Source: a virus. Taken from it: a stretch of 41,760 nt of DNA. Both the position numbers and the translations under genes were made by a program. Location: positions 1-41,760 of IMG/VR virus record IMGVR_UViG_3300005663_000099; one strand, written 5' to 3'. The notes below the pieces were generated by a model. That model was not told where the DNA came from. It ran no database searches and was given only the letters and a program-made list of their open reading frames with translations. Of the stretch, positions 9,089 through 40,622 are shown in pieces (positions within the stretch are counted from its first letter, which is position 1; the number at the start of each line of letters is the position of its first letter).

Positions 9089-9997
9089 ATGAGATTCACG
9101 CAGTGGGCAGAATCGGGAGGCTACGTTCCTTTCAACCTGGCGCCGGACTTTCGTATGGGCCACGTCAACGTCTACTTCTTCGCCGATGCCGGCGGGGGTG
9201 ACGGCGGCGGAGGCGGCGGAGGCGGCGACGGAGGGGATGGGGGTGACGGAGGCGGAGGCGGAGGGGGTGACGGGGGAGGCGAGCCGGGCGGAGGCGACGG
9301 CGGTGCGGGCGGCGGAAGCGGCGGCACCGATCTGAAGTTCAGCCAGGCGGACCTGAACCGCATCTCCAAGAAGGAGCGGGACAAGTACAACTCTGAGAAG
9401 CAGGTGCTCATCGACCAACTCAAGGACGTGGAGAAGCAGAAGGGTCTGAGCGACGAGGCGAGGGCCAACCTGCAGACCCAGATCCGCGACGCGGAAGAGT
9501 CGCTCATGACCGCTCAGGAGAAGTCCAAGGCCGAACTTGGGCGGGCCGCCAAAGTACACGGCGAGGCGCTCGACGTCGAGAAGAGTCGGGCGGATCTGAA
9601 CTGGGACATGTACGTCTCGGAGAAGAAGCGCGTCGCCATCTCCGCCGCGGCCAGCAAGCACGGCGCCTACAGGGCCGAGCAGCTGACCGCGGTCGTGGAG
9701 CCGATGACGGAGATCGTTCCCGTCAAGGACTCCAACGACAACATCATCGGCCACGACGTGATCGTCAAGGTCACGGAGAAGGCCGAGGATGGCACCACGA
9801 AGGAAAAGGCGCTGACCGTCGACGAGTACGTCGACGCGATGAGGGCCAACGAGGATCACGCCAATCTGTTCGTGTCCACCAAGCAGGGTGGATCAGGGTA
9901 CCGGCCGGGGACCAGTGGAACCCCGATCGGCGATCTTTCCAACATGTCCGCCACGGACAAAATCAGAGCCGGGTTGAAGGCGGGAACGAACCGCTAA
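9089..9997 (+). CDS. Probable capsid scaffolding protein with a long Gly/Asp linker
   Basis: 302 residues immediately upstream of the major capsid gene, the classical scaffold position. After about 30 N-terminal residues comes a low-complexity tract of nearly 50 residues of Gly and Asp (9181-9331), then charged coiled coil (LKFSQADLNRISKKERDKYN onward), a short beta segment, and a C-terminal tail ending TDKIRAGLKAGTNR that could bind capsid. Scaffolds of the GP20 type share the charged helix. The ATG at 9089 has GGAG nine bases upstream; a GTG at 9074 would overlap that site. The Gly/Asp tract is unusual for a scaffold. Confidence 0.65.
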   Translation: MRFTQWAESGGYVPFNLAPDFRMGHVNVYFFADAGGGDGGGGGGGGDGGDGGDGGGGGGGDGGGEPGGGDGGAGGGSGGTDLKFSQADLNRISKKERDKYNSEKQVLIDQLKDVEKQKGLSDEARANLQTQIRDAEESLMTAQEKSKAELGRAAKVHGEALDVEKSRADLNWDMYVSEKKRVAISAAASKHGAYRAEQLTAVVEPMTEIVPVKDSNDNIIGHDVIVKVTEKAEDGTTKEKALTVDEYVDAMRANEDHANLFVSTKQGGSGYRPGTSGTPIGDLSNMSATDKIRAGLKAGTNR

Positions 9998-29831: not shown

Positions 29832-29840
29832 AAGTGTACA

Positions 29841-29931
29841 GGTAATTGCGCTCTACCCCTAGCCCTAGGGGTAAGCCCTACCCCCTCACACCCAGGCGTT
29901 CGGGACCTAGCCCCCTACGTACGCAATTACC
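29841..29931. promoter_or_regulatory. Inverted-repeat control element, copy 2
   Basis: GGTAATTGCG (29841-29850) is perfectly inverted as CGCAATTACC (29922-29931), with 71 bases between. The right arm lies in a block from 29920 (TACGCAATTACCGTAACAA, then CAAGAATAGAAGGAAG) that matches 401-438 closely. Together with the shared promoter, this makes 29841-30102 a diverged copy of 314-683. A regulator that loops or bridges two sites is one reading. Confidence 0.6.
29854..29873 (+). terminator. Hairpin between structural and replication operons
   Basis: TACCCCTA pairs with TAGGGGTA around GCCC: 8 perfect base pairs, 23 bases after the last structural gene. No T-run follows, but a second CCTACCCC at 29877-29884 could pair with the GGGG in an alternative fold. 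It may end or slow transcription of the structural operon. Confidence 0.45.
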
Positions 29932-30013
29932 GTAACAACCACAAGAATAGAAGGAAGCACAACAAAGGAAGCGAGCGCAGGTAAACGGACCGTAAAACTG
30001 ATTTATTAAGAAG

Positions 30014-30042
30014 TGTACTTATGGTCTTTTACGTGGTATAAT
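30014..30042 (+). promoter_or_regulatory. Sigma-70-type promoter of the replication operon
   Basis: TGTACT (30014-30019), 17 bases, then a perfect TATAAT (30037-30042) in GGTATAATGTAG. The preceding ATTATTAAG-like block and TTTACG within the spacer match the promoter at 589-617. It lies 78 bases before the helicase gene. The leader between has a hairpin GGTGG/CCACC (about 30065-30080) and the shared CACGCGCACATTAC block. Confidence 0.75.
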
Positions 30043-30119
30043 GTAGATCCACGCTTGAGGGAGGGTGGCACAAAACCACCGGGTTCTTCACGCGCACATT
30101 ACGAAGGACGGAGAGGATC

Positions 30120-32283: not shown

Positions 32284-32836
32284 CGAGGTAGTCGGCAAGC
32301 TGCTCGAGCTGGAGCCGAAGATCAACGTCCTCCTTGATGAGGTGGCGTTGTACCTGGAGCGCGCTCCGGCTGAAGCCGTCACCATTGACCTCCAACGCTT
32401 AGGCGACCTCGTCCTCGCCATGGACAATATCAAGATCCAGTGTGAGGAGGGCAGGAAGGCGGTCAACAGGATCGCCCATAAAGTGCACGACCACTTCTGT
32501 CGCGAGATAGTAGACGCGGAGGAAGTTCCGTACAGACATCCGAATGCAACGTTCACACCACACGTAGACAGCGAGTTCTCGATCAAGAACGCGGACGCTC
32601 TGTTCAGCCACTTGCAGATAGCTCAGGGGCTGTCCCAGAAGGAGGCGTACGATCGATTCGTAGAGTTGGCGCAGAAGAAGTCCGAACGCAAGAAGCTGTG
32701 CCAGTCCTACCTTGAAGACGGACAACCCCTACCCGATGGGATGAAGGGGTTCAGTTGGGCGAAGGTCATCATCAGAAGGAAAAGGAGAAAAGGAAATGGC
32801 GGAGAAGAAGACAGAGGTAGCGAAGACGAGTTCTGA
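32246..32836 (+). CDS. Unknown replication-operon protein with an acidic C-terminal Phe tail
   Basis: 196 residues from GTG 32246 (GAGGG nine bases upstream). Long helices fill most of it (KINVLLDEVALYLER; NADALFSHLQIAQGLSQKEA). After a basic run (IIRRKRRKGNGG) it ends in an acidic tail with a terminal phenylalanine (EEDRGSEDEF), as the next three large replication proteins also do. That tail is encoded in a 41-base overlap with the next gene. Function unknown; binding to DNA or to the replisome is plausible. Confidence 0.6.
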   Translation: MSATPRQDKRDHSEVVGKLLELEPKINVLLDEVALYLERAPAEAVTIDLQRLGDLVLAMDNIKIQCEEGRKAVNRIAHKVHDHFCREIVDAEEVPYRHPNATFTPHVDSEFSIKNADALFSHLQIAQGLSQKEAYDRFVELAQKKSERKKLCQSYLEDGQPLPDGMKGFSWAKVIIRRKRRKGNGGEEDRGSEDEF

Positions 32837-33563
32837 GGTTCAGCTACCGGCCTACGTGGAGGAGGCGGAGGGAACGCTGGAGCACGCTCGCGCGAGCGAC
32901 TTCATCATCCCGCGACTCCTGCTGATGCAGTCGCTGTCGCCGCAGGTGGTGGACGGCGACGCGAAGTCCGGCGAACTCTACGAGAACGTGGAGGGCGCTC
33001 GGTTCGCCGAGTTGCTGGACAAGGACACCTCGGAATCGCTGGACTTCATCCCGTGCTACCACTACCTCGAGTGGTTCGAGTGGGCGGAGAGGAGCTCAGG
33101 CAAGGGCATCATCGCCCGCAGCACCGACCCGAAGGGAGTCCTGGCGCAGAGCGTCGCGCGCGGCGAGATGGTGCAGCGCGACGGACGCGACCTGTTCAAG
33201 GTGACGGAGTACCACAACTTCGTCAGCCTGTTCCCGGGCTACTCGCTCGAGAAGCCGGTGGTCATCAGCTGCAGCAAGACGCAGATCAAGAAGGCCCGCG
33301 CGCTGCTCACGCTGATCCGCTACCGCGGGCCGAAGGTTCCGCTGTACGCGGGCAAGTACACGGTCACGGGCATCAAAGAGCACAAGGCCGACTTCACGTA
33401 CTGGAACTTCGAGTTCGAGAACGCCGGCTTCGCGGAGGAGGTCGAGTACGCCGCGTCGAAGGCGCTCTTCAAGGTCTGCAAGGAAGCCTACGGTCGGGGC
33501 GCCCTGCAGTCGCACGTCGACGAGGACGACGAGCCGAGCCGAGGCAACGAGAAGGACTTCTAG
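32796..33563 (+). CDS. Probable single-stranded DNA-binding protein
   Basis: 255 residues. The N-terminal half has the form of a phage ssDNA-binding family: ASDFIIPRLLLMQSLSPQVV, then GELYENVEG and SLDFIPCYHYLEWFEW. The C-terminus is acidic and ends in phenylalanine (DEDDEPSRGNEKDF), like SSB and T7 gp2.5, where this tail binds partner proteins. It sits among helicase, exonuclease and polymerase genes. The fold itself cannot be proven by eye. AAAAGGAGAAAAGG precedes its ATG. Confidence 0.6.
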   Translation: MAEKKTEVAKTSSEVQLPAYVEEAEGTLEHARASDFIIPRLLLMQSLSPQVVDGDAKSGELYENVEGARFAELLDKDTSESLDFIPCYHYLEWFEWAERSSGKGIIARSTDPKGVLAQSVARGEMVQRDGRDLFKVTEYHNFVSLFPGYSLEKPVVISCSKTQIKKARALLTLIRYRGPKVPLYAGKYTVTGIKEHKADFTYWNFEFENAGFAEEVEYAASKALFKVCKEAYGRGALQSHVDEDDEPSRGNEKDF

Positions 33564-33572
33564 TCTCGAGCG

Positions 33573-33808
33573 AGGGAGAAGGGTGGTCCTGCTGGTAACG
33601 GCGGACAAGGTTGCTCCAACTACCTGAAACACCCCACTCTCCCTAGCACCTGCGAGGCGAGGAAGGCGGACGTGCAGCGTGGAAGGACATGCTACCCCGC
33701 TAGGCCCGAGGGTAAAAGTGCAGCCGAGGCCTCTTGAAGGCACAGCTGAAATATCGGGCGAAGAGCACATCCAATAGCCGGTGTCGAATCCGGTCACGTC
33801 CGTCTTCC
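33573..33808 (+). ncRNA. Candidate structured RNA (uncharacterised)
   Basis: The 261-base gap between two genes holds two helical domains. The 5' domain pairs AGGGAGA (33573-33579) with TCTCCCT (33638-33644), inside it GGGTG (33581-33585) with CACCC (33630-33634), then GGTA/TACC (33594-33597/33621-33624) stacked on a GTTG-ctc-CAAC hairpin (33610-33620). The 3' domain is closed by 14 base pairs (33661-33674 with 33795-33808, one G-T) and contains CAGC/GCTG, GCCT/AGGC, CCCGA/TCGGG and a CCGG-TGTCGAAT-CCGG arm resembling a tRNA T arm. I can match no known family. It might be an independent RNA, a leader regulating the next gene or a replication signal. Confidence 0.5.
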
Positions 33809-33824
33809 AATATCACGGGGTCTC

Positions 33825-34145
33825 ATGAGAAACTGCGCCATAGGTGGATGCGATCAGCGGCACCCGGACGTGTGCCCGAGCTGCACGCACTGGAATCCGT
33901 CTACCGGAAGCCGCTACTACTTCTGCGCGAGGTATCAGGCCTCGAGGGCCACGTGCGATCTACCGCACGAAGCCTGCGCGACCTGCGACTACTTCGAGGG
34001 CGATCTGTCCCGCACCATGGGGCCAGGTCGTCCGAACATGAGCGGCATCGATTGGAACGACCCAGAGCACGTCCGCAAGTACTACCGCGAGAAGATGCGC
34101 AGACGTCGAGCCAACGCGAAGCTGGCGGAGGGATTCGAGGTATGA
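33825..34145 (+). CDS. Cys-rich, probably zinc-binding protein
   Basis: 106 residues. The first 65 carry eight cysteines in pairs (CAIGGC, CPSC, FCARY, ATC, ACATC), consistent with one or two zinc knuckles; the rest is a basic helix (KYYREKMRRRRANAKLAEG). ATG at 33825 has only a weak GGGG upstream and lies 16 bases after the structured RNA, so translation may be controlled by it. It overlaps the exonuclease gene (TATGA). A nucleic-acid-binding role is likely. Confidence 0.65.
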   Translation: MRNCAIGGCDQRHPDVCPSCTHWNPSTGSRYYFCARYQASRATCDLPHEACATCDYFEGDLSRTMGPGRPNMSGIDWNDPEHVRKYYREKMRRRRANAKLAEGFEV

Positions 34146-37989: not shown

Positions 37990-38327
37990 TGATGGTCGTT
38001 CCCACCGATGTGTACCTGGAGCAGGTCAAGATCCAGGTCAGGACCAAGGGCCGGTACCCGACCGACAAGCACGAGGACCACAAGGACCGCTGCCTCCAGC
38101 TCGCGGCCGAGGTGTTCGAGGTGCTGGAGCTGGCCGAGTGGAAGCCGCACCGCCACGACCGGACCAAACCCATCGACAGGGAGAAGCTGAAGGACGAGCT
38201 GGTGGACGTCTACAAGTTCTGGCTGAACCTCCTCATCATCCACGGCATCGGACCGCAGGAGTTCGAGGACGCCTACAACAAGAAGCACGGGATCGTGCTG
38301 GACAGACTACGACAGGAGGGGTTATGA
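37989..38327 (+). CDS. MazG/dUTPase-like all-alpha NTP pyrophosphohydrolase
   Basis: 112 residues. The metal-binding helices are visible as AAEVFEVLELAEW and KDELVDVYKFWLNLLI, followed by the end typical of the superfamily (FEDAYNKKHGIVLDRL). Members hydrolyse NTPs or dNTPs to the monophosphate and pyrophosphate. ATG at 37989 overlaps the primase stop (TGATGA); an ATG follows directly. It is coupled to a second pyrophosphohydrolase gene and the DNA polymerase. Substrate unknown. Confidence 0.7.
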   Translation: MMVVPTDVYLEQVKIQVRTKGRYPTDKHEDHKDRCLQLAAEVFEVLELAEWKPHRHDRTKPIDREKLKDELVDVYKFWLNLLIIHGIGPQEFEDAYNKKHGIVLDRLRQEGL

Positions 38328-38752
38328 CACAGGATGACAGGGCCGACAAGTTCGACATCGCCGACGAGAGGGTGAGGGTGGATCTGCTGCCGTCCCACCC
38401 GCTGGTCGAGATCGCGAAGGTGCTCACCCACGGCGCCGGGAAGTACGGGGCGGACAACTGGCGACGGGGCCTGGAGTGGAGGAGGTACTACGGCGCGGTG
38501 ATGCGTCACATGCTCGCGTGGGAGGGAGGCGAGGACCTGGACCCGGACAGCGGACTGTCCCACCTCGCGTGCGCGGGATGCAACGTCCTCTTCCTGATCG
38601 AGATGGCCAGGACGCGACCGGACCTGGACGACAGGTTCAAGTACAAGGCCGAGCTGATCGGCGACTCCGACGTCAAAGTTCGCTACCTGCCGCGCAGTCC
38701 GCTTCAGACGGGAGGCATCGCGCATGGCGCGGACCCTGATACAGACAGCTGA
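38324..38752 (+). CDS. dATP/dGTP pyrophosphohydrolase-like protein (MazZ-type, DUF5664)
   Basis: 142 residues from ATG 38324 (AGGAGGGG upstream, ATGA overlap). The sequence follows the DUF5664 pattern: RVDLLPSHPLVEIAKVLTHG, AGKYGADNWRRGLEW, RRYYGAVMRHMLAWEGGED and LSHLACAGCNVLFLIE. Characterised MazZ proteins hydrolyse dATP/dGTP in phages that replace adenine with diaminopurine, but the family is also common in ordinary phages, and no PurZ is in the window. The last 29 bases overlap the polymerase gene. Confidence 0.75.
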   Translation: MTQDDRADKFDIADERVRVDLLPSHPLVEIAKVLTHGAGKYGADNWRRGLEWRRYYGAVMRHMLAWEGGEDLDPDSGLSHLACAGCNVLFLIEMARTRPDLDDRFKYKAELIGDSDVKVRYLPRSPLQTGGIAHGADPDTDS

Positions 38753-40622
38753 GCAGCTCCCGCGGTTCGATCCGAAGGAGCCGCTGTTCGTCGACCTGGA
38801 GACCACCTCCTTCGACGACGGCGAGCCGGCGTTCCAACCGTTCAAAGGTCACAGGGCGGCGGGCTACGCGATCTGCACGGCGGACGGGAGGGACGCCTGG
38901 TACCTCCCGCTCCGCCACCACGGGTCGGACGTGGCCGAGAAGGTCAACCACAACTTCGATCTGAAGCAGGCGCAGTCCTGGCTCCAGGGCGTGATCGGCT
39001 CCGGCCGGGACATCCACAACCACAACATCAAGTTCGACGGGCGCTTCTGGCACTTCGACGGGTGCGAGGCGAAGGGCAGGCTGGTGGACACGCTGGTGCT
39101 CGCCCGCCTGGTCGACAACGACCGGGTGGCGTACGGCCTGAACGCGCTGACCGGATCCAAGACCGACGAGGACATCAAGGCCTACCTGAAGTCCATCAAG
39201 TCCAAGGACTACGGTCGCGTGCCGATAGACCTCATGGCCAGGTACGCGATGAACGACGTGGTCATCACGCAGAAGCTCGAGGTCGAGCTGCTGAAGAAGC
39301 TCCGGCCGGAGACCGCCCCCGTGTGGGACGTCGAGCAGAGGCTCACCAGCCAGCTGCTCAAGTGGGAGATACACGGGATACGGGTTAACAAGAGGCGGCT
39401 GGCTAAGGCATGGAGGGTCAGGCTGGAGCAGGCCATAGGCCTGGAGGAGCAGGTCCACGAGGCAGCGGGCGTGGTGTTCGACGTGAACTCCGACAAGGAC
39501 GTCACGCGGGTGATGATAGGGAAGCTCGGCATCGAGCCGGTCGCCTGGACCAAGTCCAAGAACCCGCAGTGGAACAAGGAGGCGCTGGCGATGATCCACC
39601 ATCCCATCGCGCGCCTGCTGGCGGAGTGCAGGAGGGAGTACCACTTCTGCTCGCTCTTCTGCGAGGGCTGGCTGAAGAGGATCGGCGACGACGGGAGGAT
39701 GCACGCCAACTTCAACCTGGGTGGCACGAGGACGGGGCGCCTGTCGTCCAGCGACCCTAACCTGCAGAACTCCAACGACGACGCGAAGCAGAACATCGAC
39801 GCGGACGAGGACTGTGACATAGTATCCAGCGACTTCTCGCAGATCGAGTACAGACTCTTCGGCCACTACGCCGGGGACAGGGAGATCATCGCGGCGTACG
39901 CCGCGAACCCCAATCAGGATTACCACCAGGCCCTCGCCGACATGCTCGGCATCTCGAGGCAGGTGGCGAAGACCATGAACTTCGCGTTCATCTACGGGAT
40001 GGGAAAGCGCAAGCTGCTGAGGAAGCTGTCGGTGATGATGGCCCACGAGTCAGAGGACTCCGCGATGATCGCGAGGCTGACGTCGTTCCTGCCGAACTAC
40101 GACGGGCACGAACTGCAGGAGGCGGACTACGACAAGATCGCGTCGAACGTCTTCGACACCTACCACAGGAAGATGCCCGCGGTCCGCAAGCTGACGCGCC
40201 GGGTGAAGGACAAGGTCGAGGTCCACGGCTACCTCCGTAATTGGAGGGGGCGGATCTACAGGTTCCCGGATCCGCAGTACAGCTACAAGGCGCCGAACTA
40301 CCTGATCCAGGGATCGGCCGCGGACATCTTCAAGGAGAGGCTGCTCGCCGTCCTCGAGCAGTTCCCCTACGCCCGCCTCGTGACGAACGTCCACGACGAC
40401 TGCGTGTTCTCCGTGCCGAAGGACATGACGGAGGAGTTCGTCCGCGAACACCGCAAGGTGCTCGTCGACGTTCAGCCGGTTGAGGGGACGAAGCCGCTCC
40501 GAGTTCCGATGGTCGTCGAGACGAAAGTCAGCAGCAGGGTGTGGGGACAAGCGGTGAAGGTCGGCGACGACGGAGACGTGGCCAAGGCCCTCGCGGAAAG
40601 TGAGTTCGGGCACGCGGCGTGA
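38724..40622 (+). CDS. Family A DNA polymerase with 3'-5' exonuclease
   Basis: 632 residues. The replicative polymerase. Exonuclease residues: FVDLETTSF (Asp24, Glu26), HNIKFDGRFW, YAMNDVVITQKL. Polymerase motif A SSDFSQIEYRLFGHY (catalytic Asp370), motif B RQVAKTMNFAFIYGMG (Lys416, Phe420, Tyr424) and motif C VHDDCVF (Asp558, Asp559; Asp in place of the usual Glu). No 5' nuclease domain, in line with the separate FEN gene. GGAGG (38711-38715) sits eight bases before the ATG. It is the last large gene of the replication operon. Confidence 0.93.
   Translation: MARTLIQTAEQLPRFDPKEPLFVDLETTSFDDGEPAFQPFKGHRAAGYAICTADGRDAWYLPLRHHGSDVAEKVNHNFDLKQAQSWLQGVIGSGRDIHNHNIKFDGRFWHFDGCEAKGRLVDTLVLARLVDNDRVAYGLNALTGSKTDEDIKAYLKSIKSKDYGRVPIDLMARYAMNDVVITQKLEVELLKKLRPETAPVWDVEQRLTSQLLKWEIHGIRVNKRRLAKAWRVRLEQAIGLEEQVHEAAGVVFDVNSDKDVTRVMIGKLGIEPVAWTKSKNPQWNKEALAMIHHPIARLLAECRREYHFCSLFCEGWLKRIGDDGRMHANFNLGGTRTGRLSSSDPNLQNSNDDAKQNIDADEDCDIVSSDFSQIEYRLFGHYAGDREIIAAYAANPNQDYHQALADMLGISRQVAKTMNFAFIYGMGKRKLLRKLSVMMAHESEDSAMIARLTSFLPNYDGHELQEADYDKIASNVFDTYHRKMPAVRKLTRRVKDKVEVHGYLRNWRGRIYRFPDPQYSYKAPNYLIQGSAADIFKERLLAVLEQFPYARLVTNVHDDCVFSVPKDMTEEFVREHRKVLVDVQPVEGTKPLRVPMVVETKVSSRVWGQAVKVGDDGDVAKALAESEFGHAA

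Follow-up and report, generated by a model that had tools for sequence, protein, structure and literature searches.

Several phage RNAs offer points of comparison for a structured RNA located within a phage replication operon. ROOL and GOLLD are phage noncoding RNAs of unknown function that occur near tRNAs (PMC12286853). Reports describe inhibition of tmRNA by the tRNA-like-domain-only tmRNA of phage DS6A or a similar molecule, with titration of SmpB as a possible mechanism (PMC4131195; PMC11915505). At the junction that follows the gp34-like replication gene, the sequence records of Vibrio phage PhiVC8 and Pseudomonas phage YuA annotate Rho-independent terminators. This work presents an analysis of the same junction in an uncultured phage (IMG/VR record IMGVR_UViG_3300005663_000099); the complete 41,760-nt stretch of DNA is referred to here as the window. 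The analysis supports the presence of two stable predicted RNA domains, which together are more likely an unusually elaborate form of gene-boundary RNA than an RNA of an entirely new kind.

Two predicted RNA domains in an operon gap

The RNA lies directly 3′ of the gp34-like gene, between two replication-region genes, in a noncoding gap of 261 nt on the + strand (positions 33564 to 33824) that extends from the gp34-like stop codon to an ATG at 33825. An ORF check of the gap gave no convincing frame on the + strand, confirming an earlier note on this DNA that had described a 261-base noncoding gap inside the operon. All evidence on the window RNA itself comes from this one sequence, and its function is what we infer. 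The features are as follows:

32796 to 33563, + strand: Pam3 gp34-like replication-region protein, 255 aa, acidic C terminus (Pfam PF23977, 120.9 bits; phrog_2402)
33570 to 33647, + strand: 5′ RNA domain, a three-way junction beginning 7 nt past the stop codon, with a closing stem of 9 pairs and a 5-bp continuation
33661 to 33808, + strand: 3′ RNA domain, a cloverleaf-like four-way junction with a 14-bp closing stem (fold z of −3.68; stem reached by 0 of 1,500 shuffles)
33676 to 33693, + strand: first hairpin inside the closing stem, at the D-arm position (6 bp, loop GAAGGA; P of 0.92)
33699 to 33766, + strand: long middle branch at the anticodon-arm position, including GCCCGA/UCGGGC (P of 0.78 to 0.98)
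33777 to 33794, + strand: T-arm-like hairpin GCCGG-UGUCGAAU-CCGGU adjoining the closing stem (P of 0.97; 0 of 3,000 interior shuffles, by criteria chosen post hoc)
33809 to 33824, + strand: 16-nt leader before the CxxC gene, with a weak ribosome site, CGGGG, read from the sequence
33825 to 34145, + strand: small cysteine-rich CxxC protein with a GRPNxSGxDW motif (alignment; tblastn identities of 35 to 59% in relatives L056, L058, L060, L063, L078, and L122)

The CxxC family is unnamed, lacks a Pfam or PHROG match, and is kept beside the gp34-like gene across the phage group. Elsewhere in the window, a noncoding stretch upstream of the helicase gene (29838 to 30119), with a TATAAT box at 30037 to 30042 and short repeats (CCCTAGGGGTAAGCCCTACCCC), is likely to serve the replication operon as an early promoter or a control region. 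A dATP/dGTP diphosphohydrolase domain (38138 to 38752) adjoins a family A polymerase (38724 to 40622) that resembles DpoZ (NF038380, 230 bits, under its cutoff of 500); no PurZ was recognized among the proteins scanned.

As folded, the 5′ domain consists of GCGAGGGAGA/TCTCCCTAGC (9 pairs) followed by GGGTG/CACCC (5 pairs), with further helices GTCCTGCTG/CGGCGGAC (8 pairs) and AGGTTG/CTACCT (5 pairs). The earlier note had given 7, 5, 4, and 4 bp for this domain. Folded alone (33572 to 33645), this domain has a z score of −3.74.

The 3′ domain is closed by GGAAGGCGGACGTG (33661 to 33674) paired with CACGTCCGTCTTCC (33795 to 33808). The 14 consecutive pairs noted previously are present, 13 of them Watson-Crick and one G-U, and none of 1,500 dinucleotide shuffles reached even 13 bp (shuffle maximum, 12). 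The T-arm-like CCGG/CCGG hairpin, also noted previously, is real: it has 5 bp and the 8-nt loop UGUCGAAU, with no gap to the closing stem. This geometry arose in 13 of 3,000 interior shuffles, and geometry together with a T-loop-like sequence arose in none, under criteria selected post hoc. The suggested pseudoknot CCCGA/TCGGG, on the other hand, resolves into an ordinary nested helix, GCCCGA/UCGGGC, with a pairing probability of 0.98. The interior of the 3′ domain shows no excess stability (660 of 3,000 shuffles were equally stable), and the energy excess of this domain is therefore due to the 14-bp stem.

For the gap as a whole, the folding z score is −3.24, and none of 200 shuffles was as stable. 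The RNA accordingly passes the shuffled-energy check named in the earlier note, which had held the amount of pairing to exceed chance, but less impressively than claimed: since z scores below −3.2 were also obtained for 6 of the 139 + strand windows of equal size sampled from the phage, folding energy alone is not exceptional. (The strongest + strand outlier among the sampled windows, at 9601 to 9861 with a z score of −5.64, lies within a scaffold-like gene.) Inclusion of 100 to 300 nt of flanking sequence on either side leaves the pairing probabilities of the helices in both domains intact, and only the outermost 5′ pairs weaken.

These figures bear on the view that the structure is decayed or fortuitous and has no function now, being left over from a tRNA-like gene or from a short mobile element whose terminal inverted repeats would be 14 bp long. 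We consider this improbable. The energy is comparable to that of some coding windows, the 3′ interior folds no better than its shuffles, and nothing searched contained a relative; against this, the 14-bp stem and the T-arm-like hairpin exceed chance, no target-site duplication lies beside the repeats, and the window was found to contain no second copy of the element.

Searches for known RNA families

With the Rfam 15 models, at both gathering and lax thresholds, the RNA matched no family, the sole match (s2m) being meaningless. Group I introns, riboswitches, ribozymes, GOLLD, ROOL, and the other Rfam 15 families all gave no model match. The label of unclassified RNA, for which the earlier note had proposed a covariance search against Rfam, therefore stands, and the broader description of a two-domain structured RNA without family assignment is supported. 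Nucleotide relatives were found neither in phages nor among all fetched loci (blastn and nhmmer), and a covariance model of the 3′ domain gave no match over 75 relatives. A scan of viral and genome contigs for the exact T-arm pattern, followed by model and nhmmer searches, yielded a best score of 26.4 bits on an Armatimonadota contig (L225), away from the pattern site, which we attribute to chance.

The RNA matched neither the tRNA covariance model (RF00005) nor ARAGORN, lax thresholds included. The 5-bp T-arm-like helix is like that of tRNA, but the loop has 8 nt rather than the 7 nt of TTCRANN, and the closing stem has 14 bp rather than the 7 bp of an acceptor. The tmRNA models (RF00023 and RF04321) also gave no match in the window RNA; RF00023 detected tmRNA in relatives L057 and L079. 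If the 7 bp adjoining the T-arm are counted as an acceptor, A-U stands where the G3-U70 alanine identity pair would be. A candidate 5-codon tag frame (GCA GCC GAG GCC TCT TGA) exists and is doubtful, having no supporting context. A tmRNA with the tag AAEAS was rejected for want of G3-U70 and a model match. A minus-strand reading, in which GGATTCGAC resembles the tmRNA 5′ motif, was likewise rejected, with no 3′ half, no model match, and a z score of −2.0. An intrinsic terminator was also rejected: the terminator scan was negative, and the tails are ACCTG after the 5′ domain and AATATCAC after the 3′ domain. As a U-tract follows neither domain, intrinsic termination is unlikely here.

The same junction in related phages

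Related phages were found via the primase-helicase, in which the closest are 47 to 57% identical; two further scans for closer relatives, using the CxxC and gp34-like alignments, gave a single useful new record, L122. Genes in the relatives were assigned by tblastn, and the stop codons of more distant ones are perhaps misplaced in a few cases. The order of the gp34-like and CxxC genes is kept in L056, L057, L058, L060, L063, L078, L079, and L122. No insert separates the two genes in L056, L063, and L122, where they overlap or almost touch, and the element is therefore an addition rather than a coding remnant.

In the IMG/VR contigs L057 and L079, the gp34-like gene is followed by a hairpin, a tRNA-like RNA (RF00005, 33.7 bits), 16 nt, and the orthologous CxxC gene. 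The 3′ domain in the window occupies the place of this tRNA-like RNA and, like it, ends 16 nt before the CxxC gene. Between L057 and L079, the tRNA-like RNA is no more conserved than the adjoining gp34-like and CxxC genes. L059 has a hairpin and then a second domain (z of −5.0) with a closing stem of 7 + 10 bp. A 108-nt stretch in L060 folds as a small cloverleaf whose stability does not go beyond that of shuffles (z of −0.4). The L058 junction holds a 14-bp hairpin and a short frame, and L078 and L091 have stems of 17 and 14 bp, respectively, followed by U-runs. In L012 (6343 to 6420) and L013 (3658 to 3745), tRNA-like genes lie ∼7 nt after the gp34-like stop; their acceptor stems are lengthened to 9 bp, and their anticodon regions are abnormal.

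Full tmRNA genes were also observed in two of these uncultured phages, inside the replication operon and just upstream of the gp34-like gene (L079:3052-3359 and L057:4026-4333; RF00023, 93 and 91 bits), with a tag frame of ANPVRMAA-stop and G3-U70; ARAGORN missed them. Directly upstream of the tmRNA in L079 is a tRNA-like stretch of ∼58 nt (L079:2985-3050), with acceptor TACCGCGG/CCGCGGTA and T-arm GGGC-TTCGAGT-GCCC, that resembles a tRNA-like-domain-only tmRNA.

More broadly, a strong, often terminator-like hairpin after the gp34-like gene recurs in distant phages, including PhiVC8, YuA, Ab18, and BcepF1. Among cultured phages carrying the gene, 9 of 10 have a hairpin of 8 to 13 bp at this spot. 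Of 83 distinct loci, 38 (46%) have a helix of ≥10 bp in the 100 nt that follow the gp34-like stop, compared to 2.3% in shuffles and, by the same measure, 7% after the helicase gene, 4% after primase, and 18% after polymerase; a U-rich tail is present on 30 of the 46 post-gp34 helices with ≥9 bp. Because this survey was prompted by the data and the loci are related, its counts are not independent and describe a trend rather than probabilities. We define the recurring post-gp34 stem-loop, a class introduced in the present analysis, as a strong stem starting from a few to ∼30 nt past the stop. The 5′ domain in the window has these properties, its 7-nt distance falling within the usual range. These observations indicate that RNA structure is a regular feature of the junction and that the 5′ domain stands at the usual hairpin site. 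The earlier note missed this context, namely, that relatives of the phage regularly have either a terminator-like hairpin or a tRNA-like RNA at this spot.

The relatives also bear on a cis-acting leader, in which the RNA would mask or unmask the ribosome site of the CxxC gene and in this way govern translation of that gene and of those coupled to it. As the earlier note had it, the RNA ends 16 nt before a gene with a weak ribosome site, and when the 261 nt are folded in isolation, the ribosome-site region UCACGGG is paired with CCUGCGA at a probability of 0.96. With coding context, however, this probability drops to 0.03 to 0.13, and ribosome-site sequestration was rejected on that account; moreover, three relatives keep the CxxC gene and lack the element, while others have unrelated sequence there. 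We regard such a leader as quite improbable.

The tRNA-like and tmRNA genes in this part of the operon (L057/L079, L012, and L013) raise a further alternative, namely, that the 3′ domain, or the entire 261-nt stretch, forms a stable, trans-acting RNA, a tRNA-like decoy for a host factor that handles tRNA or tmRNA. Candidate factors are SmpB, EF-Tu, RNase P, and a tRNA-cutting defense enzyme. The cloverleaf-like junction, with its T-arm-like hairpin against the closing stem, is consistent with such a role, and the reported inhibition of tmRNA by a tRNA-like-domain-only molecule provides a precedent (PMC4131195; PMC11915505); by analogy, the 3′ domain may work like the DS6A RNA. Nevertheless, no tRNA or tmRNA model matches even at lax thresholds, the T-loop has 8 bases instead of 7, the acceptor-like stem is twice the normal length, and CCA and G3-U70 are absent. 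We consider a decoy rather unlikely. A bolder version, in which the RNA would found a new class of phage tRNA mimics with a doubled acceptor stem and an enlarged middle arm, excised from the replication mRNA to occupy a host factor that recognizes tRNA or tmRNA, strikes us as improbable.

A proposed gene-boundary RNA compared with known systems

We tentatively favor, at somewhat under an even chance, the reading of the gap as an elaborate boundary RNA between cistrons, placed where the gp34-like cistron ends. The two-part order of a hairpin and then a second domain, common to the window, L057/L079, and L059, is among the observations that support it. Such structures would cap or sever the polycistronic mRNA past the gp34-like gene. 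Candidate steps are termination, polymerase pausing, a block to 3′ exonucleases, and an endonuclease cut in the long stem; the choice among them is conjecture. As a result, the gp34-like protein could be produced in an amount different from that of the CxxC, exonuclease, and primase proteins encoded downstream. In addition, the cloverleaf-like 3′ domain may be freed from the transcript as a stable molecule resembling tRNA, as presumably happens to the RNA of L057/L079. Several points argue against a boundary element: there is no U-tract and, by scan, no terminator at this junction in the window; such a boundary would require far fewer than 261 nt; and the searches found no RNA homologue and hence no covariation support.

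The survey suggests that RNA structure regularly occupies one junction of a widespread phage replication operon, in the form of simple terminator-like hairpins, tRNA-like RNAs, or an ornate two-domain structure. It offers a testable case for the possible control of gene dosage by an RNA boundary within such an operon and for the possible origin of tRNA-like RNAs at such a site.

Among described systems, ROOL and GOLLD resemble the window RNA in being phage noncoding RNAs but are larger (GOLLD is often >800 nt), whereas the window RNA has no Rfam match. With tmRNA, including the DS6A form, it shares a phage-encoded, tRNA-like domain with a long insert; it differs in lacking a model match, G3-U70, and the D-region motif and in having only the doubtful 5-codon tag frame. 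The tRNA-like RNA of L057/L079 has a canonical T-loop, a 6- to 7-bp acceptor, and no sequence similarity to the window RNA, which fails the tRNA model; common to both are the junction, the preceding hairpin, a T-arm adjoining the closing stem, and 16 nt to the orthologous CxxC gene. The window RNA differs from the annotated terminator of PhiVC8 and YuA in that its 5′ domain is branched, a second domain of 148 nt follows, and there is no U-tract, yet the upstream gene, the neighborhood past its stop codon, and the strong stem are the same.
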